Program-made: the position numbers and the translations under genes
Origin: Aestuariivivens sediminis
GTDB lineage: Bacteria; Bacteroidota; Bacteroidia; Flavobacteriales; Flavobacteriaceae
Length of the DNA: 64,000 nucleotides
Direction: 5' to 3'
Assembly (NCBI RefSeq): GCF_022662105.1
Contig: NZ_JAKMCP010000007.1
Coordinates: 1 to 64,000 of the forward strand
Notes under the pieces: model-generated
What the model was told of the DNA's origin: nothing
Seen by the model: only the letters and a program-made list of their open reading frames with translations
Database searches by the model: none
In this document: positions 22,655-45,639 of the stretch, piece by piece
How positions within the stretch are numbered: the stretch's first letter is position 1
Layout: every line of letters starts with the position of its first letter

Positions 22655-24247
22655 ATGAAGCAAGATCCCGTTGATGTACTGGTGATAGGTGCCGGGGCGG
22701 CCGGAGCGGCCCTGTCGTGGCGATTAACCGAAAAGGGAGCCAAGGTGGTTTGTTTGGAGCAGGGCGGCTGGGTAGACCCCGCCACCTTTCCCTCTCTAAA
22801 TTCCAATTACGAAACCCAGCTTATGAGGGATGGGGACTTCAGTTTGAGTCCGAATATGCGCAAGCGGCCGGAGGACTATCCTGTAACGAGTCATGGCGAG
22901 CATCCGCCCTTTATCATGATGTTTAATGCCGTTGGGGGCTCCACCATCCATTGGCAGGGCATTTTCCCCAGGTTCCATCCCTCCGATTTTAAAGTCAGAA
23001 CCCTGGATGGGGTTGCCGACGACTGGCCCCTGACCTACCGGGAATTGGAGCCCTATTATAACCTGAACGACATGATGATCGGCGTTTCAGGACTTTCCGG
23101 GGATCCGGCCAATCCCCCCAGACCGCCACGGCCCACTCCGCCGCTGCCCATCGGTAAGATGGGTCACACCCTGGTAAAGGGTTTTGAGAAGCTCAACTGG
23201 CACTGGTGGGTGAGCGACCAGGGTATTATCTCCAAAGCCTATAAGAACCGGAACCCCTGCATGCTCCATGGAAAATGCATGTTTGGCTGTCCCATGGGCG
23301 CCAAGGTAACGACCGACCGCACCTACTGGCCCCTGGCCATAGACCGGGGTGCCGTGATCAGGACCTGGTCCAGGGTCAAGGAGATTACAGTAGACCGAAA
23401 TGGTCGGGCCAGGGGCGCTATCTATTTTGATAAGGCGGGACAGATCCATGAGATCCGGGCCAAGGTGGTGGTGGTATGTTGTAACGGCATTGGAAGCCCA
23501 CGCCTCTTATTGAATTCCAGGTCGTCCTTATTTCCGGACGGGCTGGGCAATACCCAGGGCCTGGTGGGCACCCATTTTATGGTGCACCCCAACCTGTTCG
23601 TCCATGGTATCTTTGAAGAGGCTATGGATGGGCATATTGGCCCCATGGGCAGTCCGCTGTACAGTCAGCAGTTTTATGAAACCGACGAGCGGCGCGGCTT
23701 TAAACGGGGGTATATGCTCTACGGGGAGCGGACCTTCGGGCCCTTGAGTCAGACCTCCAACATCCCCTGGGGGGCCCAGCACCATAAGGCTTTTCGCGAA
23801 CAATTTCCGCATCAGGTGGGACTCACCGTGTTGGTAGACGATCTGCCCGAGCCCGGCAATACGGTGGCACTGGATGATACGGTTGTGGATTCCAATGGCA
23901 TTGCCGCGGCCAAAGTGACCTATGCGCTCTCCGAAAATTCGAAGAACATGCTGGCACATGCCGCGAAAAAGGCCACGGAATTACTGGAGGCTGCGGGCGC
24001 GATATCCGTCCATGTCCCGCCCCCTTCGAATATGGCCCATTTAATGGGCACGGTCCGGATGGGCACCACAGAACGCCATTCGGTGGTGAACAGGGACCAC
24101 CAGGTGCACAGTGTGCCCAATCTGTTTGTGGTGGATGGCAGTTCGTTCACGACGGGGGCGGGAGTCAATCCCACCTCTACAATCATGGCTTTGGCCTTAC
24201 GGGCAGCCGATAGGATCTGGGACCGCCGAATGGCATGGCATGGATAG
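22655..24247 (+). CDS. GMC-family oxidoreductase (FAD subunit)
   Basis: FAD-dependent dehydrogenase of 530 residues that oxidises a sugar, polyol or alcohol. GAGAAG at about 12-17 begins the Rossmann FAD site, and GGSTIHW supplies the second flavin contact. HGKCMFGCPMGAK is a cysteine-rich segment found in gluconate-dehydrogenase-like members. The GMC C-terminal domain has the MGTVRMG region and GVNPTSTIMALALRAADRI with the conserved Asn. It pairs with the Tat-exported small subunit upstream; the FAD subunit itself has no signal peptide, as expected for a hitch-hiking partner. Part of its 3' third (around 24031-24200) and two other blocks recur in a fragment at about 42525-42793, so this gene has been duplicated and partly lost elsewhere. 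Substrate unknown. Confidence 0.93.
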   Translation: MKQDPVDVLVIGAGAAGAALSWRLTEKGAKVVCLEQGGWVDPATFPSLNSNYETQLMRDGDFSLSPNMRKRPEDYPVTSHGEHPPFIMMFNAVGGSTIHWQGIFPRFHPSDFKVRTLDGVADDWPLTYRELEPYYNLNDMMIGVSGLSGDPANPPRPPRPTPPLPIGKMGHTLVKGFEKLNWHWWVSDQGIISKAYKNRNPCMLHGKCMFGCPMGAKVTTDRTYWPLAIDRGAVIRTWSRVKEITVDRNGRARGAIYFDKAGQIHEIRAKVVVVCCNGIGSPRLLLNSRSSLFPDGLGNTQGLVGTHFMVHPNLFVHGIFEEAMDGHIGPMGSPLYSQQFYETDERRGFKRGYMLYGERTFGPLSQTSNIPWGAQHHKAFREQFPHQVGLTVLVDDLPEPGNTVALDDTVVDSNGIAAAKVTYALSENSKNMLAHAAKKATELLEAAGAISVHVPPPSNMAHLMGTVRMGTTERHSVVNRDHQVHSVPNLFVVDGSSFTTGAGVNPTSTIMALALRAADRIWDRRMAWHG

Positions 24248-24288
24248 GGACCGTCAGGCGCCTTTACCACAGGGATGAGCCTATACGG

Positions 24289-24307
24289 CACCGGGGGAAT
24301 CCCGGTG
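24289..24307 (+). terminator. possible terminator of the GMC pair
   Basis: CACCGGG (24289-24295) and CCCGGTG (24301-24307) form a 7-bp GC-rich stem with a 5-base loop. A T-run follows only about 18 bases later, so this is a weak classical terminator. The sequence becomes A+T-rich directly after it (near 24320), which marks the left edge of the AT-rich island. Confidence 0.45.
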
Positions 24308-24374
24308 TTGCAGCATACCATTATTTTTTTCTTACAACAAAAAGTAGTCTTTATTAGCAAGGAAGTGTTATATT

Positions 24375-26219
24375 TCATAAGTCTTTGTACCCATCGCCAT
24401 TGGGTGTAAAGTATTTTGGATAGTCAAAAACATGAACCTCCTTTACCATTATTCCACATCCAATTTTATCCTTGATATAAATGTTATAGCTTCCAGAATT
24501 TAAGTTTTTGAAGATTGCACTATTCTGATAATTGACACCATCCAAGGAATATTCATAATTCCCTACTCCATTAACCCTTACCTCTATAGAATTATTGAAT
24601 ATCGTCCAATCCATCTTGCTTATATTTACGTTATCAGGGCGTCCGGACATGATAACTTTAATATTTTTAGAAGCGGAACACTCCCCATCAAAAACGGTTA
24701 GTGAGTAGACACCGGGAGTATTCACCATAATCTCAGGTGCAGTTTCGCCAGTGGACCATAAATAAGAATCATGTAAACTGTTTACATAAATTTTCTCCTC
24801 TTCACCCGCACATATGGTCCAAGTATTCGCCATATCAATAACAGGATTTTCAAAAACTTCTAAGGAATAGGATAAAAAATAGGTGTTATATCCGGATTGT
24901 ATTTTCACTTTTATTTCAAATGTCCCTGTGGTAACAAATTGATGTTCCGGTTCCAATTCCCCAGAGGTGGTACCATCCCCAAAATCCCAATGCACCTCAT
25001 CCAGGGGTAAATCTGTACTTATACCAAAAACACTCATTTCTCCTAAACAAACATTTTCACATTCAATAGAGCCTATAAATGAAGATTGCACAAAAGGCGG
25101 AAGCCCATAGACTGCAAGCCCCTCATTGAGATCCGTTCCCTTATTTACATAATTACAACCTAAGCCCAAGACATTGGGTTTCTCAATATAGTCTAAAAAA
25201 GAGGTTAACCCATTGGATATATATATCCTTCCATCTATTGCCAATTGAATACCCGATAAAAGTTCTTGCCCTTCATACAACAGTAAAACAGAATCGATTA
25301 TAGCCGTTTTTTTAAAATTGTGTAAATCCATTTGGTAAAGTAAACTAGAAAAGTCAATCAAATCCAAATCTGTCACGTACAGCAAATTACCATCAGGTGA
25401 AAATTCAATTCCATAAGCGCCATTACGAGGGCCTTTTCTAAAAATTTCATCCAACAAAATCGGATTTGACACCATTCCCGTTCTCGTATCAAAATCAAAT
25501 ACTTCGACGGTACTATTGATATGCCATTTAGCTAAAGCCAGTTTTTTACCATTTGGAGCTATTTTAAGATATCCAATACTATTTTTAACTTCACCTCCAT
25601 GAAAACTGCCAACTTTTGAAACAACGGGGACTTGAACTACTCCGGAGTCGTTAACCTCGAAAACCAGAAAGTCATCACCATTCCAAGTATGTGATGCTAC
25701 CCAAAAATCGCTTCCATTGGCATGCCTAACTGCTGAAATTTTTTCAGTAGAAGGCCCCATTAGAAAAATATTTTTCAACAAAGTTATGTCTCCTAATCCA
25801 TTATTCAGTTCCATATTAACCTCCGTATATCTTAAGCCGGCTGATTGAGCTGCATTTGCCACAGTGAATATATAGTATATACTTTTTGAGTCCGGCTTAG
25901 GAACTATTATGGCTGACTGCGTACTTGATATATTACCCAAAAGGCCTTTCCCGTTAGGCATAACGCAATGGTTTCTATCCCAAACTGTAACGCCATCAGT
26001 ATAAAAGAGAAGTTCTCCTTTGTTATTGGATATCGTGGCACACCCCTCGTTTGTCCTTAATTTCCCATCAGAAAGTGGGTTCACTTCTGTTTCACTGAAA
26101 CTTAATCCGGCATGGTATCCAAAATACCAATTGGCGGATTCCATTTGACCCCAAGAACTATTTGATAAAAACACAAGACATGTAACCAGCAGATGTGATA
26201 TTTTTTTTGTGTTTTTCAT
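24375..26219 (-). CDS. PKD-domain T9SS protein with truncated C-terminal sorting domain
   Basis: Secreted protein of 614 residues with a signal peptide. The N-terminal 350 residues form a beta-propeller-like region (NWYFGYHAGLSF, LLFYTDGVTVWDRN, HCVMPNGKGLLGN), followed by a PKD domain (VHWDFGDGTTSG at about 405) and Ig-like strands. The C-terminus ends PKYFTPNGDGYKDL then stop. TPNGDGYND is normally the beginning, not the end, of the roughly 80-residue type B T9SS sorting domain, so about 70 residues needed for export through T9SS are missing. No continuation was found in the other frames downstream. The gene ends about 50 bases from the island edge, so truncation probably came from the rearrangement that formed the edge. 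Function of the intact form unknown. Confidence 0.75.
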   Translation of the reverse strand: MKNTKKISHLLVTCLVFLSNSSWGQMESANWYFGYHAGLSFSETEVNPLSDGKLRTNEGCATISNNKGELLFYTDGVTVWDRNHCVMPNGKGLLGNISSTQSAIIVPKPDSKSIYYIFTVANAAQSAGLRYTEVNMELNNGLGDITLLKNIFLMGPSTEKISAVRHANGSDFWVASHTWNGDDFLVFEVNDSGVVQVPVVSKVGSFHGGEVKNSIGYLKIAPNGKKLALAKWHINSTVEVFDFDTRTGMVSNPILLDEIFRKGPRNGAYGIEFSPDGNLLYVTDLDLIDFSSLLYQMDLHNFKKTAIIDSVLLLYEGQELLSGIQLAIDGRIYISNGLTSFLDYIEKPNVLGLGCNYVNKGTDLNEGLAVYGLPPFVQSSFIGSIECENVCLGEMSVFGISTDLPLDEVHWDFGDGTTSGELEPEHQFVTTGTFEIKVKIQSGYNTYFLSYSLEVFENPVIDMANTWTICAGEEEKIYVNSLHDSYLWSTGETAPEIMVNTPGVYSLTVFDGECSASKNIKVIMSGRPDNVNISKMDWTIFNNSIEVRVNGVGNYEYSLDGVNYQNSAIFKNLNSGSYNIYIKDKIGCGIMVKEVHVFDYPKYFTPNGDGYKDL

Positions 26220-26389
26220 TACAATAAGTGCTTTTTATGCATTACCTGCTTTAAAATAGGCGCATTACGAATAGTTTCTTTACTCAAATCGAAAAAGTCA
26301 AGCGTAAACAGTTTAAAGGCTGTGTAGCCCCCAATGAGATTCCAACATTTCCATTCTCTATTCCGTAATTCGTCATTTCTGATGACTTT
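26219..26389 (-). pseudogene. unrecognised coding remnant of about 55 codons
   Basis: On the - strand the frame ending at 26219 (TAATG overlap with the next gene's ATG) is open for about 55 codons and reads like protein: LRNREWKCWNLIGGYTAF, then DFFDLSKETIRNAPILKQ. No ATG or GTG with a convincing start is present in the conserved-looking part and a stop lies just upstream. I do not recognise the family. It may be the 3' end of a lost gene between the PUL and the PKD protein, or chance. Confidence 0.3.
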
Positions 26390-26487
26390 TTAATTTTCAT
26401 AATGTGGTCTTGCATCTAAGAAAAAGAAAATATCCAAGACTAAAATAATTGTGACATAGTTCACCATACTCTTACCATTTAGCACGT

Positions 26488-28908
26488 CTATTCTATCGTT
26501 ACATTTTTATGCACTATCGGTAAATATGGCGTTGAAACATTCAATTCGATTTCTCCTTTATCTTTAGTTGCTCTTAGGTAAATTGTTGCCCTTCCATCCA
26601 AAAGTCTATGCTTATTGTCTGTATAGTTCTCTGCCACATTGCCTGATGCATTTTCAATGCCTAAAAGTTCTCCGTCTTCTCTAACAATGCAGGTAATTTC
26701 ATTATCCGCTTTTTTGGCTAAATTCCCGTTGGCATCTATGGCTCTGACTTCAATAATAGCAACATCGTTTTTAGATTTTAACCTGGCCTGTTTTATTTCT
26801 AATTCTAAATATTCAGGTCGATATGTAGTTTGTATTGTCTTTGAAACCATTTCAACATCATCCCTATAACCTACTGCCTTCAATTCTCCTTTTATGAAAG
26901 GGACATCCCAATACACTATGCCCGTTTCATCATCATACTCCCGGTTTTTCCCTATTTGCTCTCCATTTAAATACAAAGACACCTTCTCTGTATTGGTATA
27001 ACACACCACCCTTATGAGATCACCATCTTTATAGTCCCAAACATCTGGTGCATCAATTGCTAATCCATTGTTGGTACTTACGGGGTAGGTTCCAATATAA
27101 ACCATTGGATTTTCAGCCCATAAGGATTGTCTAAAATAGCCTATGGGCTTTATATTGCCAGCAAAATCTAACAATCCTGATTCAAACCCTCTGGACGGCC
27201 AGGCATGTGCTTCTCCCAGATAATCAATGCCTGTCCAGATAAATTGTCCGAAAATAAAATCTTTATCTCTTACAGTTTTCCAGGCATGAAAGTCGTGACG
27301 TGTTTCACTTCCATAGAGTATACGGTTGGGGTATTTTGCATGGTCTTCCTCATATCTACTCTCTGTATAATTGTACCCTACAATATCCAATGCTCCGGGA
27401 TATGCTGTTTCGTTAGACATTAGGACTCCTGCCAAAGCCGCAGTTACAGGTCTGCTGGTATCTATCGATTTTACAATAGGCACTAATTCTTTGGCAATAT
27501 CGCCTAATCGATCGGCATGAGGGTGATCTTTCAAATAGCCTTTTACAAAATGCTGACTAATAGCCCCAGTTGCTAATACCGGATGACTATAAGGATCATT
27601 AGGATAATCTACTTCATTCCCTATACTCCACATAATAATTGACGGATGATTTCTATCACGTTTTACCATGGTTTCTAAATCATGTTTCCCCCATTCTCTG
27701 AAATCTTTTGCGGCGCCTTGAAATTGGGGTACGCCATGATTCCAACCCGTTATCCATTTTTTTTTTGGATATTCCCATTCATCAAAGGCCTCGTCCATTA
27801 CCAACATTCCTAGTTCATCGCATAAATCATACAAATCTGTTGCCTGTGGGTTGTGGCTCGTACGAATTCCATTAGTCCCTAATTCCTTTAATTTTAGAAT
27901 CCGTTCTCTCCAAACCTCCTTTGGGACGGCAGCCCCTAATACCCCTGCATCATGGTGTAAACATACCCCCTTGATTTTCATCCGGTTCCCATTAAGTGCA
28001 AATCCTTTATCTGCATCAAAGTCAATAGAACGAATTCCCACATTGGTTAATGACGTATCCATGATTTTGCTTTCTTGATAGAGTGTTGTTCTCAATTGGT
28101 ATAAATAGGGATTATTTATACGCCATAGTTCAGGATTGGTTATTTTAAGAATTTGATTTGAACTAACTTTTTTTTCTGAAGTAATTTTTACTTTTTGAGC
28201 AGATGTAGCAACTACTTTACCTGTAGCGTCAACAAGTTCTTGCTTCACTTTAAAAGCACCAGAACCTAAAGTACTGGTTAATTGACTTGTTACTTTTATT
28301 TCTGCTTTATTCTCCTTTATTTCAGTGGTATAATTAACGCCCCAGAGATCAAAATGTGTTGGTGCTGCAGTAACCAAATGTACATCTCTATAAATTCCAG
28401 AACCCGTGTACCATCTGGAGTCTGCATCTTCTTCATGATCCACTCTTACCGCTACCACATTGATTCCTCCATAATTTACATACTCACTTATCTCATATAT
28501 AAATGACCCATAACCACTTGGTCTTTTCCCTAACCATTTACCATTGATATAAACTTCACTATTTCTATAGACCCCTTCAAAATACAAATACAATCGCTTT
28601 CCATCCTTGTCCTCCGGGATATCTAAATTCGTACGATACCACGCTATTCCCCCGGGCAAGTAACCTGTACAACTGGCTTTATCGGGACTTGCAGGAAAGG
28701 TTACTGACCAATCATGAGGCACATGAACTTTTTCCCACGTGCTATGATCCAGTGTCTGTCTTCCTCCTAAATGAACATCACCATAATGAAAATACCAGTC
28801 GTTTAGAGTTTGTGATTTTCCAAAGCCTTGCCCAAAAACAGGATTGCCAATAGTTAATAGAAGGATTATATATAACCGAGTTACTATTTTAAGGGTTAAT
28901 TCAAACAT
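26488..28908 (-). CDS. GH2 beta-galactosidase
   Basis: Exported glycoside hydrolase family 2 enzyme of 806 residues with a signal peptide. The order is a sugar-binding domain (about 30-200), an immunoglobulin-like domain (to about 300), the TIM barrel with FALNGNRMKIKGVCLHHD and GTNGIRTSHNPQ, and a C-terminal DUF4982-like region. The acid/base is Glu432 in SIGNEVDY and the nucleophile is Glu535 in LYGSETRHDF. Beta-galactosidase is the most likely activity and would remove terminal galactose from oligosaccharides produced by the neighbouring GH53 enzyme. It is 78 bases downstream of GH53 on the same strand and belongs to the PUL. Confidence 0.93.
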   Translation of the reverse strand: MFELTLKIVTRLYIILLLTIGNPVFGQGFGKSQTLNDWYFHYGDVHLGGRQTLDHSTWEKVHVPHDWSVTFPASPDKASCTGYLPGGIAWYRTNLDIPEDKDGKRLYLYFEGVYRNSEVYINGKWLGKRPSGYGSFIYEISEYVNYGGINVVAVRVDHEEDADSRWYTGSGIYRDVHLVTAAPTHFDLWGVNYTTEIKENKAEIKVTSQLTSTLGSGAFKVKQELVDATGKVVATSAQKVKITSEKKVSSNQILKITNPELWRINNPYLYQLRTTLYQESKIMDTSLTNVGIRSIDFDADKGFALNGNRMKIKGVCLHHDAGVLGAAVPKEVWRERILKLKELGTNGIRTSHNPQATDLYDLCDELGMLVMDEAFDEWEYPKKKWITGWNHGVPQFQGAAKDFREWGKHDLETMVKRDRNHPSIIMWSIGNEVDYPNDPYSHPVLATGAISQHFVKGYLKDHPHADRLGDIAKELVPIVKSIDTSRPVTAALAGVLMSNETAYPGALDIVGYNYTESRYEEDHAKYPNRILYGSETRHDFHAWKTVRDKDFIFGQFIWTGIDYLGEAHAWPSRGFESGLLDFAGNIKPIGYFRQSLWAENPMVYIGTYPVSTNNGLAIDAPDVWDYKDGDLIRVVCYTNTEKVSLYLNGEQIGKNREYDDETGIVYWDVPFIKGELKAVGYRDDVEMVSKTIQTTYRPEYLELEIKQARLKSKNDVAIIEVRAIDANGNLAKKADNEITCIVREDGELLGIENASGNVAENYTDNKHRLLDGRATIYLRATKDKGEIELNVSTPYLPIVHKNVTIE

Positions 28909-28986
28909 TTATTTATAGAATTTATGTTATTGTGTTTATTTGGAGAGCACAATCTTAAATTTGATTGTGAATCAAAAAAAGTCTCA

Positions 28987-30087
28987 TTATTGAAAGATTT
29001 CCAGTATTGGTAATTGAACATTATCATAGTTTAACACTGCCTGGTTTTCCCAATGCGTTCCATTATAGGTATCTGGTTTTGGCCGCATATATGCACCAGT
29101 TACCCCTCCCCAAATTCCAATTCCTAATCCTTTTGGGTTATCTTCGACTATTTCGTTTATCTTTTCGACGAAATCTCTTTGCCCAACAGGTGTAGCAGGA
29201 TAAGAAGAAACCAAAAAACGATCTGTTCCTTCTAAAGACGCAAAAGGGTATATGGTTTCCGCTACTACAATTTCCTTGTTCAAGTCACTTGACAACAGGT
29301 TAAAATTAAATTGAAAATGTTCTAATTTATTCCCGTGCCAATACGGGTAGTATGACAATGCAATGATGTCATAATCTATATCGTTTAAATCTCTGAAAAA
29401 ATCTATAGCTCCAATGTGCCCCGCGTAATGGAGCATTATTTTTGCTTCTGGGGAAGTACTTCTTACAGCCTGAACGCCCTCCTGTATCAAGTTTTTAAAA
29501 GCGGTTAAATCACTACTATGACCTTCTGGCCATAAAAAACCATTATTCACTTCATTTCCTATTTGTACATAATCTGGTTCAATCTGTGAGATAACCTTAG
29601 AGGTGTATTGAAAAACACTATCTTTTAATACCTCTAAACTGAGATTGTCCCAGGCTTTTGGTTTTTCTTGCATTTCTGGATCTGCCCAGGTATCGGAATA
29701 ATGAATGTCCAACCAGACTTTAATGCCCTTTGCTTTAATTTCATTTGCAAAGGACTTAACCTCAGCTAAGCTTGAATGCTCATTATCGGGAGTATGCCAA
29801 AGTCTTAATCTAATGGTATTAAAGCCTGAATTTGATAAAATATCCAAAAAATCCAGTTTCATACCGGATGTATCAAATGTTTCAATGTTAAGTGCTCTTA
29901 ATTCAGGAACAAAAGAAGCATCTATGGCCTTAATCATGAATCTGTCAGGAGTTGGATCTTCTATATTTGGTAAACCGGTATCTTCGCTATTACTACAGGC
30001 TACAAAAGCACATATAACTGTTATTATTAGAACAATTGTTGTTTTCGCCTTTAATTGTTTTGGAGTTTTCATGTTTATTATATTCAT
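28987..30087 (-). CDS. GH53 endo-beta-1,4-galactanase
   Basis: Glycoside hydrolase family 53 enzyme of 366 residues. All characterised GH53 members cleave beta-1,4-galactan, the side chain of type I arabinogalactan and pectin. A lipobox (FVACS, Cys near 32 if the first ATG is used, or near 26 from the next Met) anchors it on a membrane. Landmarks are FNTIRLRLWHTP, VWLDIHYSDTWADPE, the acid/base Glu179 in QIGNEVNNG and the nucleophile Glu277 in VVAETIYPF, and GIGIWGGVTGAY near the end. Its presence defines the likely substrate of the PUL. It lies between two GH2 genes on the same strand. Confidence 0.95.
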   Translation of the reverse strand: MNIINMKTPKQLKAKTTIVLIITVICAFVACSNSEDTGLPNIEDPTPDRFMIKAIDASFVPELRALNIETFDTSGMKLDFLDILSNSGFNTIRLRLWHTPDNEHSSLAEVKSFANEIKAKGIKVWLDIHYSDTWADPEMQEKPKAWDNLSLEVLKDSVFQYTSKVISQIEPDYVQIGNEVNNGFLWPEGHSSDLTAFKNLIQEGVQAVRSTSPEAKIMLHYAGHIGAIDFFRDLNDIDYDIIALSYYPYWHGNKLEHFQFNFNLLSSDLNKEIVVAETIYPFASLEGTDRFLVSSYPATPVGQRDFVEKINEIVEDNPKGLGIGIWGGVTGAYMRPKPDTYNGTHWENQAVLNYDNVQLPILEIFQ

Positions 30088-30186
30088 TTAATTTTACAAA
30101 TTCATCACTATCATAAAACTTGAATCACAAGTTTTATTTTAATGCTCTTCCTATTCTAATTCTAAATTAGTTACACGCTATTTCTT

Positions 30187-32565
30187 TTAATTGATTTTTT
30201 CATCTTTTACCCAATAACTCAATGAATCACTTAATAATAAATTTGACTTTTTCACAAAAGAAGATGCAGAGATTTTGAGTTGACTGGAATGTTTATTTGT
30301 CTTTAATAAAATGGAAGCAATACCAGCTTTACAGAATACCGGATTTTCTCCTATTAGTTCTGCATCTCCACTTTCTATATGAAACGCGACATCTCCATTG
30401 TAATCAGTAACTAATGTTTCTTTTTCATCCACTATACTGGCGTAAACAAAAACCATATCGTTTGTTTCTAATGTCCTTTCATTTAAATCCACAGACAAAA
30501 ACATTCTATGTTCCTTTTCCGGGGTTTGTACTTCATGCACAGCGACTATCTCGCTATCCAAATAGGCTTTTGCTACTATCTTACCGGCAATAAACTTTTC
30601 TAATTGAAAGGTAAAAGGCGGGTGCCTCAGGTTGTCCGAAATCAAATTTTTATCAGGTTTTCTACGTCCTAAACTTGTGCCATTTAAAAACAACTCTACC
30701 TCATCGCAATTACTAAAAATCCGTATGTTAAGTGGGCTATCTTTCTTCCATTGATTGGCTATATGAACCATTGGTTGGCCATATGAAGCATCTGGATCTC
30801 TTTGACTTTGGAAAAAGTAATAGGCCGGCTTTGGCAATCTAAAAATATCCATGATTCCAGAGGCCTCTAAATCATTTGAATATCCTCTATTATAGTCAAA
30901 CATCACCCAATACCCATCGGCAAAAGCCGGGGTGCTTAAATTATCATTATGGGCCTCCTGCACATTTGTTGCCTGCTGTAACAAACGTGTTTCACTCACT
31001 GTTCGTAATTGCCTACTTGACCTATCCGCTTGCAGCACGTTGTCCCAACTGTCTTGATTGAGTCCTGCATTCATGGCATAATATTCCCAATCCCCATATT
31101 CTGATACGTTGTACGGTTTTTTTAATTCTGAATCGTAATGTTCTAAACGATGTTGTCTGGCCTGCAAATAAATGTCGTAACCATAAGGTTGCCATCCGGC
31201 GGTAAAACATTGATCTCCCGGGTACTCCTGATGCGCTATAGTATGCAAGGAATCCATAAATGTCTCGGACATCCAAGATTCGTTTAGCGATACTTCCCAT
31301 GCCAAAACCGATGCATGGTTCCTATCCCTTCTAACCAAATCCCTGGCTGTTTGGAACACGTGCTCCTGAAACCTTTTGTCTTCGCTAAAATACTGCCAGC
31401 CCAAAATGGCATCGATAGTTACTATCCCAAGTTCATCGCAAGCGTCCATAAAAGACGGGGCGTGTGGATAATGTGACAATCGCACATAGTCGAATCCTGC
31501 TTCCTTGATTTTTTTTGCATCCCTATAATTTGCATTATCCGAGAGTGCGTATCCAATATGAGGATATTCCTGGTGTTTGTTAACGCCTCTTAAAAAGGTC
31601 TTTTTACCATTCAAGTAAAAATCTTGCCCAACAAACTTTATCGTCTTGATACCAATCCTTGTAATTTCTTGATCGACCACCATGTCATCAAGTAAAATCT
31701 CTGTTTTTAATTGGTAAAGATGAGGTGAGTCCGGGGACCATAACTCTGGATTTTCAACATTTATTCCAAGTACAACCTTTTTATTTTTATTTGATTTTAA
31801 AACCTGCTCCTTGCTTTTAACAATAGCAATTATACTATCCTTTTTCAGTACTGTATTTTGTACTCGAAACGATACGCTTTTTTCGTACTTGTTTTTAACG
31901 TGGGTTTGAACATTTATTTTAGCCAGATTATCCGACACGAAAGGATATGTAACAAAAATACCACCGCTTGCCGTTTTATTTTCTAAAATGGGATCGGTTA
32001 TATGTAAACCATCTTTAACTATTAACCAGACATTTCTATGGATGCCTCCGTATGTATTAAAGTCTAACACCTTTAGGGGTTTAGGTCCGGTAATGGGGTT
32101 ATCCCTATTATCTAAACGTACCTCTACTGTATTTGACCCGTTGAAAATAGCTTGTTCAGTAAAATCTACAACAAAAGGTAAATACCCTCCATGATGTTCC
32201 ACCAGTTTAACGCCATTTACCCATACCTCTGCAATATTCATGGCACCTTCAAACTTCAACAGTAATTGCTTCCCTTTATGGTATTTTGACAACTTAAAAT
32301 TCTTTCTGTACCAGCAAATGCCTTGCCATTGGTTATTAACGACTTCCGGTTCTATTCTAGGGGTGTGAGGCAATTCTACCTCCTTCCATTTCTCAATGGC
32401 AACAAGTTTTCTAGAAAGTGTATTTATGGAATCCCAATCATTTTCCACTCTAAACGACCAACCATCGTTGAACTTCTTCTTATTTATAAAGGGACTATTC
32501 CCTTCACTACATCCGAAAAAAAAGCCCAAAAAAATAGCCAAAATTATATTTCTAAAAATTTTCAT
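30187..32565 (-). CDS. GH2 family glycoside hydrolase lipoprotein
   Basis: Second GH2 enzyme of the PUL, 793 residues from the start chosen here. An ATG at 32631 is also in frame, but the 22 residues it adds are lysine-rich and precede a good lipoprotein signal (MKIFRNIILAIFLGFFFGC), so 32565 is preferred. Domains follow the GH2 order: sugar-binding, Ig-like, TIM barrel with FYLNGKKTFLRGVNKHQEYP, and a long C-terminal beta-rich part. The acid/base is Glu429 in SLNESW and the nucleophile is Glu489 in NVSEYGDW. It is more divergent than the other GH2; beta-galactosidase is likely, but a different exo-activity on a galactan decoration is possible. Confidence 0.88.
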   Translation of the reverse strand: MKIFRNIILAIFLGFFFGCSEGNSPFINKKKFNDGWSFRVENDWDSINTLSRKLVAIEKWKEVELPHTPRIEPEVVNNQWQGICWYRKNFKLSKYHKGKQLLLKFEGAMNIAEVWVNGVKLVEHHGGYLPFVVDFTEQAIFNGSNTVEVRLDNRDNPITGPKPLKVLDFNTYGGIHRNVWLIVKDGLHITDPILENKTASGGIFVTYPFVSDNLAKINVQTHVKNKYEKSVSFRVQNTVLKKDSIIAIVKSKEQVLKSNKNKKVVLGINVENPELWSPDSPHLYQLKTEILLDDMVVDQEITRIGIKTIKFVGQDFYLNGKKTFLRGVNKHQEYPHIGYALSDNANYRDAKKIKEAGFDYVRLSHYPHAPSFMDACDELGIVTIDAILGWQYFSEDKRFQEHVFQTARDLVRRDRNHASVLAWEVSLNESWMSETFMDSLHTIAHQEYPGDQCFTAGWQPYGYDIYLQARQHRLEHYDSELKKPYNVSEYGDWEYYAMNAGLNQDSWDNVLQADRSSRQLRTVSETRLLQQATNVQEAHNDNLSTPAFADGYWVMFDYNRGYSNDLEASGIMDIFRLPKPAYYFFQSQRDPDASYGQPMVHIANQWKKDSPLNIRIFSNCDEVELFLNGTSLGRRKPDKNLISDNLRHPPFTFQLEKFIAGKIVAKAYLDSEIVAVHEVQTPEKEHRMFLSVDLNERTLETNDMVFVYASIVDEKETLVTDYNGDVAFHIESGDAELIGENPVFCKAGIASILLKTNKHSSQLKISASSFVKKSNLLLSDSLSYWVKDEKIN

Positions 32566-32847
32566 TTCTATTTTTTTGATTTTTTTAGATAGTGTATTAA
32601 TTACGATTCTTCCTATCTTATTTTTAATCATTTGAAAATTTGGGACTTAACTTGGAAGAATTCTCTGTTCTTTTACACTTTATCTATGCCCATTTATAAC
32701 GTTTTTTATCCTTTAGCCAGGAGAAAATAATCGTTCACCAAACACACTTTTAAAATTAAAATAGAGAGGAAGTAACTCCTCCCTATTTCGTCTTCACAAA
32801 AAAAAGCAAACCAAATCCCTACTTAATTAAGTGCGAAGTATCATTAT

Positions 32848-34017: not shown

Positions 34018-34116
34018 TTGTTAATTTTTTTTATTGACACTTTGGGCCGGAACTTATGGTAAAAAAGCCCTATCCCTTAGTCCAAATTGGTAATATGGGT
34101 TATTAAAATTTATCTT

Positions 34117-35187: not shown

Positions 35188-35348
35188 AATTTACATTTAG
35201 TTTTAGTTAATATTTTTGTTTTTGAATTGTTTCAGCATGTTAACTCAATATTAAATCGTTTAGAAGCTATATGGATTTTAATTCTACATTGATTATAATT
35301 AAGAGCACCGTTGTCCTTAGGTTTAAGATGGGTTCTTTTGCCGTTTTA

Positions 35349-36902
35349 CTAATAACCGGGATTTTGCTTTAAATTAGGATTTGTAAGTAGGTCTGATATT
35401 GGAATAGGGAATAAATTATACTTACTGTCCACAGAAGTTCCAGATTTCACACCACCTTTCCATTCCCATAAATAGTCGGCTGTGGTAAATCGGTTATAAC
35501 GAATTAAATCCGTTCTTCTATGCCCTTCCCAAAGTAATTCTCTTGCGCGTTCGTCAAGTATGAAATCCAATGTCAAATCCGACAAAGAAATATTGCCTAA
35601 AGTGCTATCCGGATTATCGCCATACGCTCGTCCTCTAATTCTATTAATGTATGACAAAGCTATTGCAATATCTCCTCCAGTACCCCCTCTTAGAACAGCC
35701 TCGGCATAAATAAAATAGATTTCTGCCAATCGAAAAACAGGAAAATCAACGTCACTGGCACTATTGTTCGTGTTCTTTTGTAGAATTGGAACCCCATTTC
35801 TATCTACATTTCTAAACTTATAAATAGAGTATCCATGTCTTGGATTTAACAAGGACTCAATTTCCAAGGTTTGATTATCGGTCCAGAATACAGCTCTTTT
35901 ATCAATGCTTGGATCATAAGAGGGAAACAACGCCGGGATTTCGGATCTCACGCGCAAACCTTCCCAACTTGCCGTCAAGCCTGTTATCGAAGGTGGCACA
36001 CCTGCCGGTCCAAGAATATTGACATTTGTACTGCGCCATGGATTGCCAAATTCATTGTCATAATTAAACGTAAAAATAAATTCATTGGTGTTAAGATGGT
36101 TGTCTCCTAACATTAACCATGCATGCTTCTGTTCTAATGCATAACCCGCATCGATTACTTTTTTACTATAGCTAATTGCTTCGGTAAAATGCGCCTCCCC
36201 CGAATAGATTTCGGCATTTAAATATAATCGCGCTAATAAAGACCAAACCGCTGCTCTATCTGCCCTGCCATATTCATTAGATCTGGCTTCGACCATGTTC
36301 AATTCGATGTCTTGTAATTCTGATTCAATAAACTCGAATAAATCCCCTTGTTTAATCTGACTTGGCGTATCTCCATTGGCTAAAGTAACTTCGGTCGCAA
36401 AGGTTGGATTCCCGAATAAATCAAGTAACATCCAATAAGCATAGGCCCTGACAAAACGCACTTCACTAAGATAAATTTCAACTTCTGCTTTATCAGCCTC
36501 AGAAAAACCACGTTTTTGTAATACATCTGGACTAGCCTCTAAAATAAAATTGTTGCATAAACTCACTAGATATAGTATTTCCCTATATCGTTCTGCCGAC
36601 ATGTTATGATCCGAAGACCAAATCAATTGGGTTGTCTGCTGTCCACCATCCCATTTACTTGCCATTTCGTCGGTTCCCGATTCCTGTAATGTCCAATAAT
36701 ATCTATATACACCACTACCGTCAAATCCGGACAAATTCTGATAAACAGTTGAAAGTCCTTGTTTATATGCTTCTACTGATACAAAAAGTTCATCTCCTTG
36801 AATTTCGTTTGTTGGAAACAAGTCTAAATCATTTGCACATGACGATAAACCTAATAATACCACCAAACAAATGCTCAATAATTTTATACTTAATATTTTC
36901 AT
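35349..36902 (-). CDS. SusD-like (RagB/SusD) nutrient-binding lipoprotein
   Basis: Lipoprotein of 517 residues (LSSC, Cys22) that caps the SusC channel and binds glycan. The N-terminal TPR-like region shows YRYYWTLQESGTDE, FNFILEAS-like helices and AEVRFVRAYAYWMLLDLFG, a hallmark of the family. The C-terminal part has FRLAEIYFIYAEAVLRGG, YINRIRGRAYG and ILDERARELLWEGHRRTDLIRYNRF, all typical SusD motifs, and ends LTNPNLKQNPGY. It lies 35 bases after SusC, the standard pair arrangement, and should act with it on the same glycan. Confidence 0.97.
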   Translation of the reverse strand: MKILSIKLLSICLVVLLGLSSCANDLDLFPTNEIQGDELFVSVEAYKQGLSTVYQNLSGFDGSGVYRYYWTLQESGTDEMASKWDGGQQTTQLIWSSDHNMSAERYREILYLVSLCNNFILEASPDVLQKRGFSEADKAEVEIYLSEVRFVRAYAYWMLLDLFGNPTFATEVTLANGDTPSQIKQGDLFEFIESELQDIELNMVEARSNEYGRADRAAVWSLLARLYLNAEIYSGEAHFTEAISYSKKVIDAGYALEQKHAWLMLGDNHLNTNEFIFTFNYDNEFGNPWRSTNVNILGPAGVPPSITGLTASWEGLRVRSEIPALFPSYDPSIDKRAVFWTDNQTLEIESLLNPRHGYSIYKFRNVDRNGVPILQKNTNNSASDVDFPVFRLAEIYFIYAEAVLRGGTGGDIAIALSYINRIRGRAYGDNPDSTLGNISLSDLTLDFILDERARELLWEGHRRTDLIRYNRFTTADYLWEWKGGVKSGTSVDSKYNLFPIPISDLLTNPNLKQNPGY

Positions 36903-36937
36903 TTTTGTTTTTTTAGTTCTACAACGCTCTTACTACA

Positions 36938-39900
36938 CTACAAATTCAGATTTAAAGAGATTGAATAGGTTCTTGGAGCGCCATATAGACCTCCTAACCC
37001 TGCTCCCCAATTCCATGGAGCTTCTGGGTCACCACCTGTATAATTTGTAATAACAAATACATTTTGAACCGAGGCTGAAACCACTAAGTTGGAATTTCTT
37101 TTTTTGGAGTTAATGATATTTCCAAAATCATAGCTCAAATTGATATTATCCATCTTTAAAAAGGATGCATTCTGCAAGTAAAAGTCACTAAAATCCTGAT
37201 TGATTGAGTTATCTTTAATGAAGCCTGTTTGAAAATAAGTCGTACTGAAATTGTAAGGTATAATTTCAAAATAGAGCTCTCTCAAATTATCCTTGGGTTG
37301 AAAATATATATATTGCCCCAAATTTGAATGAAAAGCCATGCTCAAGGTTAACTTTTTGTAATTAATGCTTGAACTAAACCCTATAATATGTTCAGGAGCC
37401 GAACTTTTCGTTCGATAACGATCTTCTTCATTTATAAGGCCATCCTTATTGAGGTCAACCATTTGGTTTTCAATAGGATTTCCGTTAACATCATAAACCT
37501 GATGGTAAAGAAAAAATGTGTTTCTTGGGTATCCAACCGTATTAACAATACGGCTACTGCTAAGTAAGCCTACCTCACTATCATCGCCCTCTCCCAATCG
37601 CGTGATTTTATTTTCATTATAACTATAATTGGCTGAAAGGTTCCAGTTTAAATCTTCATTTCGAACGATACTGCCGTTGAGCTTAATTTCTAAACCTGTA
37701 TTTTCCAAACTTCCAATATTCTTTACAATGGAATTGGCGAAATTAGTTCCTGAGGGTAAGGCCACATCGTTCAGCAAATCTTTGGTATCCCTTTTATACA
37801 CTTCAAAACTCCCGGTAAGTCTGTCCCTATACAACCCCCAATCCAATCCAATATTAGTTGTTTCAGATTGTTCCCATTTTCTGTTTCTATCTACAGCCTG
37901 AGGATAAAAGCCCTGTATCAAACTATTCCCTATAGGATATGTATAACTTGCAGCTCCAAATTGATAAACCGGGATGTATTCATATTCGCCAATGCCATCT
38001 TGCTGTCCCGTTATTCCATATCCCGCTCTTAGTTTTAAGGTTGATATAGTTCGGGAGTCTTTTAAGACATTTTCCTCATTTATTTTCCATGCTGCCGATA
38101 CCGAGGGAAACACACCCCATCTATTCGCTCTGGAGAACCGTGAAGACCCATCCGTTCTAATTGAACCTGTGAGGACATACTTATTATCTAAGGTATAAAT
38201 CAGTCGCCCAAAATAGGAAATCAAAGTGCTCTCAATATTGTCAAAATTAAAATTAGGAACAGAGCCGGGGTTTTCTACACCATCTTCATCGTAAACAGGG
38301 TAGTTATAATTCTTCGTTTTAAAACTATTATAAGAATACCCCGCTAAAACCTCTATTTTACTAAGGATAGCCTTTAATTCATTTATATAATTTATCGTAA
38401 ATTCCCCAAATAAATTATTCACTTCTTGAGAAGGGTCTCCTCCAGATATTTCACCATTAGCAACATTGTATAAAAAATTTGTTGCCGGAATAAACCTTCT
38501 TGATTTTTTTCTTGCAATATCATAACCTGTATTCAATTTAAAAGACAGGTCCTCAAAAAAAGGAAGCTTATATTCCAATTGCATATTACCAATACTTCTG
38601 AGACTGGTTGCCCGTGAATCAATTTGATACAGTTGTGAAACAGGGTTATGATGTGACCCCAAAATCCACGGGTTTGATGCAAATTGTTCGTATTGCCAAT
38701 ATCCGCCATAATAAGAGTCGCTATCATAAACCGGTTGAGTAGGATCAAAAGTCACAGCTCTATAAATCACATCTTCATTTGCTATTCGCTCTTTTTGACT
38801 CATCCCCTTTATATTTACATTGACTTTTAAATGCTGATCAAAAAAACTAGGACTTAAATTTAAATTCAAAGTGCTTCTTTTAAAATTCCCTGTCTTAAGC
38901 GTCCCATCCTGATCCAAATATCCAAGTGACAAACGGTATGGCAATCCTCTAATACCTCCACTAACACTAATGGTATTATCAGTTGTTAAGGCATCCTGGT
39001 AGATCTCATCCTGCCAATCTGTATTTTCATTTCCTAAATTGAAATCCTCAATTGGAATTCCTGATATTATAGAAGCTTCTTCGGCAACAGCTCTATATTG
39101 ATTTCCAGTTAAAACATCCTGCTTAAAAATATTTGTTGATATCGAGGTTCCAGAAGAAAAGGATACCTTGAATTCACCTTCACCCCCTTTTTTAGTAGTA
39201 ATAATAATTACCCCATTTGACCCTCTTGAACCATAAATAGCCGCTGCCGATGCATCTTTTAAGACGCTAAATGATAAAATATCTTCAGGATTTAAAGCAC
39301 TTAAAATCCCTGGCCCGTCAGAAGCGCCTACCGGAACTCCATCAATAACAAATAGCGGATTGTTGGAAGCACTTAAAGAGGCTCCCCCTCTTAAAAGGAA
39401 GGAACTTCCTGCCCCAGGTCTCCCACTTATTGGCGTAATTTGCACACCTGCAACCTTATTGGCAATCAACTGCTCTGCATTGGTTACGAAACCCTTTTGA
39501 AAATCTTTTGAGTCAATCTTTACAACAGAACCCGTGAGGTCTTTCACCTTTGTAGTTCCATACCCAATTAACACCACCTCATCAAGTTTGGAAGTATCCT
39601 CCTTCAAAGTGAGATTCAATGTTCGTGATTCAGTAATACCTATTTCTTGGGTTACAAAGCCCAAATAGGATATGACTAAACGTGTATTTTCATTTTTAAG
39701 CTCCAAACTAAACCTACCATCGAAATCGGTTTGAGTACCATTGATTGTCCCCTTTTCAATTATATTAGCTCCCGCCAAAGGCTGTCCGTTGGAATCCGTA
39801 ATGACACCCGAAACCTGGATGCCCTGCTGTTTGACAACATCCAACGATTCTTCTTTTACCCAAATAGTGTTATCGGCTTCAAGCGTTACAATAAGATTTC

Positions 39901-40213
39901 CTTTAGACAAACTTTTTTTCAACAAATCATTTGCGGATATGTAACCCTTCTTCAACTCGACTTTAGGATAATCTTTAAATATTCTATCTTGATAAATGAA
40001 TTTATAATCCGTTTGCTCTTTTATTAAACCGAATACCTCTTCGACTGTCAAGGTCTTATCTTCATCTATCTTTATCTTAATGTTTTGAGACAGGACATTG
40101 CTTGGCACAAAGCTTAAAGCCGCAAAACAAAATAAATAAATGAAGGTTTTCATAATAATAATTAGTAATTTCTTTCTAAAACAGGAAAGAGCCTCTTTTA
40201 GTTTAATTTCCAT
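36938..40213 (-). CDS. SusC-family TonB-dependent transporter with STN domain
   Basis: Outer-membrane TonB-dependent transporter of 1091 residues that imports oligosaccharide through SusCD. A signal peptide follows a short basic extension (a second Met at residue 21 is an alternative start). Next are an STN domain (about 45-125, LTVEEVFGLIKEQTDYKFIYQ), a carboxypeptidase-D-like/CNA repeat (VSGVITDSNGQPLAGANI), the plug with the SusC signature region GYGTTKVKDLTGSV and DASAAAIYGSRGSNGVIII, and the barrel ending in a terminal strand (YSISLNLNL). The STN domain is normally used to signal to a FecR anti-sigma factor; the FecR and ECF sigma genes lie directly upstream. It is the largest gene of the PUL. 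Confidence 0.97.
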   Translation of the reverse strand: MEIKLKEALSCFRKKLLIIIMKTFIYLFCFAALSFVPSNVLSQNIKIKIDEDKTLTVEEVFGLIKEQTDYKFIYQDRIFKDYPKVELKKGYISANDLLKKSLSKGNLIVTLEADNTIWVKEESLDVVKQQGIQVSGVITDSNGQPLAGANIIEKGTINGTQTDFDGRFSLELKNENTRLVISYLGFVTQEIGITESRTLNLTLKEDTSKLDEVVLIGYGTTKVKDLTGSVVKIDSKDFQKGFVTNAEQLIANKVAGVQITPISGRPGAGSSFLLRGGASLSASNNPLFVIDGVPVGASDGPGILSALNPEDILSFSVLKDASAAAIYGSRGSNGVIIITTKKGGEGEFKVSFSSGTSISTNIFKQDVLTGNQYRAVAEEASIISGIPIEDFNLGNENTDWQDEIYQDALTTDNTISVSGGIRGLPYRLSLGYLDQDGTLKTGNFKRSTLNLNLSPSFFDQHLKVNVNIKGMSQKERIANEDVIYRAVTFDPTQPVYDSDSYYGGYWQYEQFASNPWILGSHHNPVSQLYQIDSRATSLRSIGNMQLEYKLPFFEDLSFKLNTGYDIARKKSRRFIPATNFLYNVANGEISGGDPSQEVNNLFGEFTINYINELKAILSKIEVLAGYSYNSFKTKNYNYPVYDEDGVENPGSVPNFNFDNIESTLISYFGRLIYTLDNKYVLTGSIRTDGSSRFSRANRWGVFPSVSAAWKINEENVLKDSRTISTLKLRAGYGITGQQDGIGEYEYIPVYQFGAASYTYPIGNSLIQGFYPQAVDRNRKWEQSETTNIGLDWGLYRDRLTGSFEVYKRDTKDLLNDVALPSGTNFANSIVKNIGSLENTGLEIKLNGSIVRNEDLNWNLSANYSYNENKITRLGEGDDSEVGLLSSSRIVNTVGYPRNTFFLYHQVYDVNGNPIENQMVDLNKDGLINEEDRYRTKSSAPEHIIGFSSSINYKKLTLSMAFHSNLGQYIYFQPKDNLRELYFEIIPYNFSTTYFQTGFIKDNSINQDFSDFYLQNASFLKMDNINLSYDFGNIINSKKRNSNLVVSASVQNVFVITNYTGGDPEAPWNWGAGLGGLYGAPRTYSISLNLNL

Positions 40214-40317
40214 AAATTTGCATGGTTATTAGTTAGTTAAACATTTAATTAATTAGTAATCTATAATGGGGGATGAAGTCGTAAGATTTCCAAGGTCTGA
40301 ACTTTATTCCCCTATTC

Positions 40318-41463
40318 TTAGTTTAGTGTTATGGTTTGGTCATTTACTTCATAGTTTTTAATTATACTTAAGGCTTTTATGGTAGATAGAATTTTATCGA
40401 TATTTTGATGTTTTCCCAATACCCCGGTAAACGTAATATCTTCAAGTGCTTTATTCTCAAAGACCACATCTACATCATACCATCTGGAAAGCACTTTCAT
40501 AATATCTTGTAAGGGCTTGCTTTGAAAGCTGAAAATGCCGTCTTTCCATGAAATGTTGTCATAAACGCTAACCTTGGTTAATGTCATCGCGTTACTATCC
40601 AGATCCAGATTTGTTTGCTGATTCGGCGATAATACGTGTTTCATATTAGATGCGCTCACAGCTACTTTTCCTTCAACCAAGGTGGTGTATACATTTTTTT
40701 CATCCTGATACGCTTTGATATTAAATTCAGTACCCAACACCTCAACTTCTTGAGCCTTATGAAGCACCTTAAATTTCGATCCCTTATGCAGTGTGCTTGG
40801 AGAAACATCAAAGTAGGCTTCTCCATATACCAATTCTACTGTACGGATTTCTCCATCATTAAATGCTACCGGGTATTTTAATTGCGACTCTGAATTTAAC
40901 CAAACCTTGGTGCCATCTGAAAGCACAACATAAAATTGCCCACCTCTTGGGATGGTTAGATAGTTGTATTCGATTTCCTTTGTTATAGTATTTATACGTT
41001 TACGCCAATAAACAATTTGCTCTCCATTACTACTGGCATTGGACGTCTGGAAAGAAGCTCCTTTTTCCAATGGCACTTGAGAACCATCCTCTAGGGTTAA
41101 GGTGGCTTTATTGGTGCCAGGTACTATTTTTGTATTTACAATTACAGGAGATTCCGTTTGCTGATCAAGACTTCCTTTGTGATTTAAAACAACTGTGAGC
41201 ACAACAAACAGCAAAACCGATGCGGCAGCAATGTATCTAAATAGTTTTCTTACAGGCTTATTTCGGTCTTCAATTATTTTTCTAACCTTTAATAGTGCAG
41301 CCTCTTCATTAATTTTATACGATGCTAAATTAATGGCATAATTCTCCTTTACCATCTTTTTGAACTTCCTTTGGTTCTTGGAATCTTTAAGCCATTCCGT
41401 TAATTTTTCGGTTTGTGCATCGGTTAAGGTGTCAACCAAGTATTTTATAATTATTTTCTGCAT
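40318..41463 (-). CDS. FecR-family anti-sigma factor
   Basis: Single-pass inner-membrane anti-sigma factor of 381 residues. The cytoplasmic N-terminal part (about 1-70) carries the sigma-binding region, a membrane segment lies near 74-92 (RYIAAASVLLFVVLTVVL), and the periplasmic FecR domain has TLEDGSQV, LTIPRGGQFYVVLSDGTKVWLNSESQLKYP and GEAYFDV. A DUF4974 domain (SWKDGIFSFQSKPLQDIMKVLSRWYDVDV) ends it. It should receive the signal from the STN domain of SusC when substrate is bound and then release the ECF sigma factor. It is upstream of and in line with SusC and divergent from the sigma gene. Confidence 0.96.
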   Translation of the reverse strand: MQKIIIKYLVDTLTDAQTEKLTEWLKDSKNQRKFKKMVKENYAINLASYKINEEAALLKVRKIIEDRNKPVRKLFRYIAAASVLLFVVLTVVLNHKGSLDQQTESPVIVNTKIVPGTNKATLTLEDGSQVPLEKGASFQTSNASSNGEQIVYWRKRINTITKEIEYNYLTIPRGGQFYVVLSDGTKVWLNSESQLKYPVAFNDGEIRTVELVYGEAYFDVSPSTLHKGSKFKVLHKAQEVEVLGTEFNIKAYQDEKNVYTTLVEGKVAVSASNMKHVLSPNQQTNLDLDSNAMTLTKVSVYDNISWKDGIFSFQSKPLQDIMKVLSRWYDVDVVFENKALEDITFTGVLGKHQNIDKILSTIKALSIIKNYEVNDQTITLN

Positions 41464-41546
41464 TTAATTAAATCGTTCTCCATTTATTAGTATATCGTCA
41501 TGAGTTTTCAAAAACCCTTAGTTAAAATCAAAAAAAATTAAGAAAT

Positions 41547-41554
41547 TATATTTG
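41547..41554 (+). promoter_or_regulatory. possible -7 box for the sigma factor gene
   Basis: TATATTTG matches the TAnnTTTG box and lies 45 bases before the ATG at 41599. No TTG -33 box at the usual spacing was seen. Confidence 0.4.
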
Positions 41555-41598
41555 TATATTTCGGCGTTAAAAATCACTTAGGGATTAATTGATAATAC

Positions 41599-42165
41599 AT
41601 GGAAGATTGGGCTTTATTTGATAAGATTAAAAATGATGACCAACGTGCGTTTGATGAATTATTTAAAAAATATTATCATCCCCTTGTTGTTTATATTGTA
41701 TCTCATACCAACGATGTTCAAATCGCAGAGGACATTGTCCAAAATATTTTCGTTTCATTTTGGAGTGACAGGCACCAAATAAAAATTGCTAAAACGGTTA
41801 AAGGTTATTTATATTGGGTCTCCTACACCGCCTTTTTAGACCATTACAGAAAGATCAAAAGAAGAAGGACCTTGCTTAATGATTTTAAGGAAAAAGCCTT
41901 AAGAGAAGCCATTGAGGAAGATCCAGAAATTATTGATGTTCGCATAAAAAAATTAAAACAGTTAATAGAGGCCTTACCGCCTATGCCAAAAAAGGTACTG
42001 GAGCTAAATAAACTTCGTGGATTAAATTATGCTGAGATAGCTGAAACGCTGAAAATATCAAAAAAAACAGTTGAATCCCATATGCGCACGGCATTCAAGA
42101 AAATAAGAAAGGGGTTTGACAATGCTTATCTTATTTTAAATTTAATACGTAAAGTTTTTAGGTAA
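41599..42165 (+). CDS. ECF sigma-70 factor of the PUL
   Basis: Extracytoplasmic-function sigma factor of 188 residues. Region 2 is visible at about 15-90 (DQRAFDELFKKYYHPLV, AEDIVQNIFVSFW) and region 4 at about 120-175 (ALPPMPKKVLELNKLRGLNYAEIAETLKISKKTVESHM), the helix-turn-helix that reads the -35 element. With FecR and the STN-type SusC it forms a trans-envelope switch that should turn on the SusCD operon when substrate is present. It is divergent from the FecR-SusC transcript. Confidence 0.96.
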   Translation: MEDWALFDKIKNDDQRAFDELFKKYYHPLVVYIVSHTNDVQIAEDIVQNIFVSFWSDRHQIKIAKTVKGYLYWVSYTAFLDHYRKIKRRRTLLNDFKEKALREAIEEDPEIIDVRIKKLKQLIEALPPMPKKVLELNKLRGLNYAEIAETLKISKKTVESHMRTAFKKIRKGFDNAYLILNLIRKVFR

Positions 42166-42524
42166 AATGACATTTCTATTGGTTGTCTAATTGGCCATAT
42201 TACTTCCTGATAAGTTCTAACGCTTCTCCAAGTAAAAGGAAACTTTAATTAATTATTACAACAAAGATTCATTCCAATGATAAAAATACATATTAAATTT
42301 ACCATTTGTAGATTTTGAAAATTTTGTCGACAAATACCCATTCGTTCGAGTTTTTCATTAGGGAATGTACCGAAAATAAGGATTTTGATTGATCCACAAA
42401 GCCTCAATGCAATACTTTAAAGCCATCAGATATCAAAAAAACCACCTGCCTGAAATTTGCTTTAAGCTGTTCCATTTTCTCTTCCGGCCGTTCATATCTG
42501 ATTTGGGGAACTGTGGTTTCTTCT
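42166..42524. other. intergenic stretch with no recognised gene
   Basis: About 360 bases after the sigma gene with no supported gene. Codons read in the frame that runs into the GMC fragment are open from 42389 but do not match the GMC family before about 42525. No terminator was recognised. Confidence 0.4.
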
Positions 42525-42793
42525 ATCCAATCCCCCAGGCCTCCACGACCCACCTTGTCGCTGCCAAAGAGACCTATGCGCTCTCAGAAAATTCGAAAAA
42601 CATGCCGGCACATCCCACCAATATGGCCCATTTAATGGGCACGGTCCGGATGGGCACCACAGAACGCCATTCGGTGGTGAACAGGGACCACCAGGTGCAC
42701 AGTGTGCCCAATCTGTTTGTGGTGGACGGCAGTTCGTTCACGACGGGAGCCGGGGTCAATCCCACCTCTACGATCATGGCTTTGGCCTTGCTC
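42525..42793 (+). pseudogene. internally deleted fragment of the GMC oxidoreductase gene
   Basis: Three blocks of the intact GMC gene at 22655-24247 are fused here in the same orientation. Block 1 (about 42525-42560) matches about 23109-23150 at most positions. Block 2 (about 42554-42616) matches about 23901-23965. Block 3 (42622-42791) matches 24031-24200 with about six mismatches over 170 bases by my count. About 750 bases between blocks 1 and 2 and about 55 bases between blocks 2 and 3 are absent. After 42791 the homology ends abruptly in the dispersed repeat. The stretch is visibly higher in GC than its surroundings. It cannot encode a working enzyme because the FAD domain is missing. The frame happens to stay open from 42389 to 42889. 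Confidence 0.88.
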
Positions 42794-42830
42794 AAAACAA
42801 AAAAGGAAAACTTCGCATGGGATTGCTACT
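42793..42830 (+). repeat. partial copy of the dispersed repeat, joined to the GMC fragment
   Basis: AAAACAAAAAAGGAAAACTT followed by CGCATGGGAT matches the inner part of the repeat at 44707-44870. It begins exactly where the GMC homology stops. Confidence 0.6.
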
Positions 42831-43692: not shown

Positions 43693-43729
43693 ATATCGGT
43701 AATATATAATTTCATGATTTTTAATTAAA

Positions 43730-43977: not shown

Positions 43978-44028
43978 ATGAGATTAGCTAATTTACCTGA
44001 TCTTTTAGTTGATAAAATCTTTAAAAAA

Positions 44029-45623: not shown

Positions 45624-45639
45624 ATACAATCCTAAAGCC

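Follow-up and report, generated by a model that had tools for sequence, protein, structure and literature searches.

In the first 64,000 bases (the window) of a 139,119-base contig (C11) from the 3.93-Mb genome of Aestuariivivens sediminis (G000), a GMC oxidoreductase gene is followed by a polysaccharide utilization locus (PUL) and, beyond it, by a fragment that repeats the end of the same gene in the same orientation. We consider it probable, at roughly three chances in four, that positions 24242-63004 form a patchwork island 3' of the GMC gene, and that the fragment is an eroded second copy of that gene at the seam of separately acquired blocks. A first-pass annotation of this DNA had taken the PUL alone as the island and the two GMC pieces as its borders. 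Comparison with relatives replaced this view, as the extra DNA extends over 38.8 kb and the fragment marks a seam inside it.

The contig was compared with the three other Aestuariivivens genomes (G001, G002 and G003), and the four genus genomes together held no second strain of the window's species. We found that the contig was largely collinear with contig C21 of G003, Aestuariivivens sediminicola MTV5-3 (record NZ_JAKMCM010000009.1), from near the window start to 24241 and again over 63005-92446, and that in G003 the two collinear ends lie only 25 bases apart (25409 and 25435). The intervening 38.8 kb (24242-63004) is extra relative to G003, which carries one GMC gene, no fragment and no PUL at the corresponding place, the kind of empty site that the first-pass annotation had proposed to look for. 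This single empty site polarises the event.

Base composition differed from that of the flanks over most of this interval. The GC content was 0.37 in the PUL segment and 0.33 at 42790-58840, against 0.45 in the left flank and 0.42 at 63001-92446, while the rightmost part of the island (58841-63004, termed the right patch) had a value of 0.43, not distinct from the flanks. The interval thus has two characteristics of a genomic island, namely neighbours that are adjacent in a relative (one only) and a composition unlike that of the flanks. The GC contrast reported earlier between the PUL and the GMC fragment (0.57, with 0.33-0.37 around it) held, but the AT-rich DNA continues past the second GMC piece to about 59 kb.

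An integrative element flanked by attachment-site (att) repeats was considered and rejected, since no intact integrase and no matching end repeats were found: contig C11 had no match to PF00589, and a comparison of 24242-24420 with 62700-63060 returned only an 8-base chance match. Transposases were absent from the Pfam matches of the open reading frames (ORFs) scanned in the window, and a tRNA scan called no tRNA gene in it.

The GMC gene and its fragment

The intact GMC oxidoreductase gene (22655-24247, plus strand; Pfam GMC_oxred_N/C) encodes a protein with 85% amino-acid identity to its G003 orthologue, and its final two codons and stop fall outside the G003 homology. Close orthologues were found in 8 of 397 family genomes, own included, which is a patchy distribution (G345 and the Eudoraea record L032 are apparently one genome and were counted once). 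Neither G002 nor G001 has a close GMC orthologue, and G001 also lacks a close orthologue of the GH18 gene of the left flank. The genes downstream of GMC differ among the orthologue-bearing genomes examined; in one of them (G021) a different SusC/SusD pair follows, its SusC about 30% identical. A joint arrival of GMC and PUL from a donor of known layout found no support, with the PUL present in 0 of the 7 other orthologue-bearing genomes over 17-25 kb downstream.

The ~170-base repeat of the GMC end described in the first-pass annotation is real, with one mismatch fewer than the roughly six reported. This main block pairs 24029-24198 with 42620-42789 on the same strand at 165 of 170 identical positions (97%, five mismatches; E 1e-76 in the own-genome search), and the longest exact run between the two GMC pieces is 107 bases. 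Two further GMC blocks upstream of it, also noticed earlier, were confirmed as well: a second block in which 42555-42628 matches 23901-23974 at 63 of 74 positions (85%), its ends overrunning the joints, and a third, weak block in which 42527-42565 matches 23109-23148 at 32 of 40 positions with one gap, a score equalled in 1 of 200 block-wise shuffles. The fragment therefore spans 42527-42789 on the plus strand, and if all three blocks are real, it lacks ~0.76 kb and 63 bases between blocks, the first ~450 bases and the last 49 bases of the gene.

The first-pass annotation had allowed that the second copy might be a conserved domain from a different GMC gene of lower identity. This was ruled out, because the 170-base block is 97% identical to the neighbouring gene and at most 79% identical to the orthologues of seven genomes (79% for G003, 68-74% for the six others). 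Other GMC genes in the own genome are only distant (30-39% amino-acid identity), and no DNA match to the GMC gene was found elsewhere in that genome beyond the fragment. To judge from these identities, the fragment is derived from the neighbouring GMC gene or a close allele of it, and the difference between 97% and 68-79% indicates that it is younger than the split from G003. We regard the fragment as a scar without a working role.

The codon comparison of the two copies, which was made without G021 (covered by BLAST instead), found only synonymous third-position changes among the five differences of the main block, an outcome with a chance of 0.002 under random changes of the same kinds. Taken together, the two main blocks contain eight synonymous differences, one of them at a joint edge. 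At these eight sites G003 has the state of the fragment four times, that of the intact gene twice and neither state twice, and the intact and fragment blocks are equidistant from G003 (79.4% each). The 74-base block also carries two clear amino-acid changes (V to E and L to P) and a third at a joint, which is the pattern of a decaying copy. As the differences in the main block are all synonymous, the simplest reading suggests that the copies parted as working alleles and that the fragment decayed afterwards. All five main-block differences also fall within the last 63 of the 170 bases, as do 0.6% of random placements, and this clustering could mark a conversion tract.

The fragment lies in a seam (42166-42826) that follows the sigma factor gene of the PUL and consists of three pieces. 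On its left is a 45-codon remnant of another gene (42407-42541, minus strand) with no Pfam match; frames of G002 and G075 resemble it at 52-66% amino-acid identity across 29-35 residues. Directly adjoining the fragment on its right is a truncated copy (42790-42826, plus strand) of a ~165-base repeat linked to tRNA-Asp, recognised by a profile match and 89% identical to 44754-44790.

The blocks on either side of the seam

The left block spans 24242-42165 and contains the PUL (26488-42165), whose genes all lie on the minus strand except that of the extracytoplasmic function (ECF) sigma factor, on the plus strand. In order, the genes encode GH2, GH53 and GH2 glycoside hydrolases, SusE, a type IX secretion system (T9SS) type-A protein, SusD, SusC, FecR and the ECF sigma factor. 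The locus thus combines a SusC/SusD pair with glycoside hydrolases and a regulator, and the galactan-type PUL seen by the first-pass annotation between the GMC pieces is indeed there. Its substrate would be beta-1,4-galactan, as inferred from GH53 and GH2; the combination of GH53, GH2 and SusC/D is what we take to be the beta-1,4-galactan PUL of Bacteroidota. The window PUL has the same gene content as such loci and differs from them in that its outermost gene is cut at the sorting domain. A DNA search of the three other genus genomes for the PUL returned only SusC/FecR-type stretches and short pieces. GH53 was found in 59 of the 299 family genomes sampled, own included, with 47% amino-acid identity for the best other protein.

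At the left border of the block is a T9SS-type gene with a PKD domain (24375-26219, minus strand), which had been called truncated in the first-pass annotation. We found that it stops ~70 residues before the end of a relative in the own genome (51% amino-acid identity), that this relative carries a T9SS type-B sorting domain (CHU_C, TIGR04131), and that profile searches gave no match for such a domain in the window gene. The left joint, where the border gene lacks its sorting domain, is no clean product of site-specific recombination.

The right block (42790-58840) includes modules with counterparts in a tRNA-Asp hotspot region of the genus. Close counterparts of 42920-43527 were found in all three other genomes, those of 52787-55472 in G001 and G002, and that of 56616-58811 in G003, and within each relative the counterparts present share one region. 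This region is a hypervariable stretch between conserved neighbours, located at 642.6-675.5 kb of C5 in the own genome, at 539-574 kb of C10 in G003 and at G001:C5:1138700-1183200; pieces shared between the G000 and G003 stretches, in a comparison of matches of at least 250 bases, occur in scrambled order. The stretch ends at tRNA-Asp(GTC) in G000, G003 and G001, and no tRNA-Asp was called in the two stretches of G002 that were scanned. Five further pieces of the G003 region matched G000:C5:648-668 kb and others matched elsewhere. The comparisons that gave the three parts showed no such counterpart for the window genes at 44.9-50.5 kb.

The right block also carries the repeat already met in truncated form at the seam. 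A ~165-base copy at 44707-44871 has a decayed tRNA-Asp end, a partial copy at 52596-52686 retains the exact tRNA-Asp 3' end at 52669-52685, and a ~165-base copy at 56407-56571 has a tRNA-Asp end with two mismatches (56553-56569), all on the plus strand. In the stretches searched we found 26 copies, in a single orientation within each stretch. Eleven copies were inspected: the tRNA-Asp 3' end GCGGTCTGGACGGGACT was exact in six, of which three lie at the tRNA gene itself, had two mismatches in one, and was lacking or decayed in four. The tie to tRNA-Asp fits less well for 3 of the 26 copies, which occupy a different part of G003 (C10:1145-1149 kb), where the 20 kb covered contain tRNA-Met and tRNA-Arg but no tRNA-Asp, showing that the repeat is not confined to tRNA-Asp loci. 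The three copies there (within G003:C10:1130575-1150574) occur near two arm-type recombinase matches. An integron reading of the repeats, which are co-oriented and often follow genes, was dropped because the array-edge repeat runs into tRNA-Asp.

The right block also holds the N-terminal relic of a tyrosine recombinase of the arm type (43520-43651, minus strand; Pfam Arm-DNA-bind_5, E 2.7e-4, 21.8 bits, just below the cut-off of 22.6), and DNA similar to it adjoins recombinase genes on C6 and C8. A good part of the right block most likely represents tRNA-Asp hotspot material that was relocated to the GMC site. In the relatives, the counterparts of 52.8-58.8 kb precede that of 42.9 kb, and in the window they follow it. 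This changed module order would fit a circular intermediate, although order is scrambled in the hotspot regions anyway.

Proposed assembly of the island and competing explanations

In the reading that we favour, DNA would have been brought in beside the GMC gene at least twice, and one of these events would have made the second GMC copy, whether through a homologous crossover within GMC, the partner being DNA with the allele of a sister strain, or through a duplication as the DNA integrated. The copy would then have been reduced to 263 bases, with its 5' part, two internal stretches and the final 49 bases gone. Illegitimate joining may have made the left border of the PUL, or worn it later, and so have cost the outermost gene its sorting domain. 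The first-pass annotation had offered both a looping out of the PUL and a duplication at island insertion; the latter proved the better half, given the empty site in G003 and a fragment derived from this GMC gene.

Several points weigh against the patchwork island. The empty junction was seen in one genome only (G003), and in G002 the left flank is matched as far as the GH18 gene, beyond which that contig shows no match. None of the seven other orthologue-bearing genomes has the window PUL beside GMC in the downstream DNA examined. The arrangement is read from the assembly, in which a contig mis-join seems unlikely because the 107-base exact repeat is short. Both the fully-synonymous test and the clustering test were post hoc, the pattern having been seen first. 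Either block may have arrived first, and either GMC copy may be the resident one.

The same orientation of the two GMC pieces and their 107-base exact run could also be taken as an active recombination pair, in which a crossover loops out the 18.6-kb PUL in part of the population, with loss or bet-hedging of galactan use. Such an exchange is possible in principle from the sequence, as 107 identical direct-repeat bases exceed the minimum usually quoted for RecA-dependent exchange, and the fragment shares its frame with an ORF that runs to 42889, which would keep the fused gene open. The clustering of the differences in the last 63 of 170 bases is likewise what a conversion tract would leave. 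The product, however, would have the last ~16 GMC residues replaced by ~33 unrelated ones (in the frame of this ORF), and the fragment borders the second acquired block too and looks eroded rather than maintained. We regard an active recombination pair as unlikely. We give a similarly low weight to an old arrangement in which the window is ancestral and G003 has lost 38.8 kb. This would agree with a direct junction seen in a single genome and with a right block and right patch that are partly genus-native, but the genus-native parts sit elsewhere in the relatives, the PUL was not found in the three other genus genomes, and the fragment (97% versus 79%) appears younger than the G003 split, though conversion could mimic this.

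The motif CGGTCTGGACGGG from the tRNA-Asp end raised a further explanation, in which tRNA-Asp-specific elements used the C-terminal stretch of GMC as a stand-in attachment site and the fragment would be the displaced end of the gene. At up to two mismatches the motif matches four times in the window, where 0.40 matches are expected, and these four are two of the tRNA-Asp repeats and both GMC copies; the arm-type recombinase relic is nearby. This motif comparison was made post hoc, the joint lies ~135 bases past the motif, the fragment also has GMC blocks upstream of it, and the G003 orthologue lacks it, which together make a stand-in site very improbable. We hold it just as doubtful that the tRNA-Asp-like GMC stretch seeded a second hotspot at GMC, which would have gathered modules of the tRNA-Asp array and then the PUL.

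The patchwork island resembles known systems in part. Hotspots without mobile elements and with recombination at the flanking genes are a kind described in 2017 (PMC5635113), and the likeness lies in a variable stretch flanked by conserved neighbours, a contig without an intact integrase and a flanking gene marked by exchange. Unlike in those hotspots, the mark here is a partial second copy inside the variable stretch, and GMC is patchy (8 of 397) rather than core. The co-oriented repeats, several ending in the tRNA-Asp 3' end, recall tRNA-gene integration hotspots with tandem accretion, whereas in the window, where no tRNA gene was called, these modules are placed next to GMC. Judged by titles, the literature searched gave no report of islands in Aestuariivivens. 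Genome patchwork of this kind is ordinary; what is unusual is how easily the seam can be read. The empty site, the truncated border gene and the gene scar together record how a marine Flavobacteriaceae strain came by a polysaccharide-use cluster that has no intact mobile element beside it, and material that most likely stems from the tRNA-Asp hotspot is seen at a second site, one without a tRNA gene. Should sister genomes settle the sequence of events, the locus would provide a small worked example of accessory loci entering through a neighbouring gene.

Further features of the window

The right patch (58841-63004) contains a DUF6090 gene, a sulfatase N-terminal piece, an aldo/keto reductase gene and a DUF4440 gene. 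The last two have relatives in G003 at 73% and 64% amino-acid identity, respectively, on two other contigs. The sulfatase piece (60089-60682) encodes 197 amino acids that cover the first quarter of the Pfam model only and is apparently a broken gene. The start region of the DUF6090 gene (59016-59264) has many further matches across the own genome and the relatives (70-78% DNA identity).

Rfam gave no match for the window and none for one repeat region. A second PUL was found in the own genome at G000:C5:938001-958000, with SusC, SusD, SusE and one GH2 at 37-67% amino-acid identity to those of the window. Within the window PUL, the T9SS type-A gene contains an internal tandem duplication of 361 bases (34386-34746 and 34758-35118) whose two copies are 86% identical.

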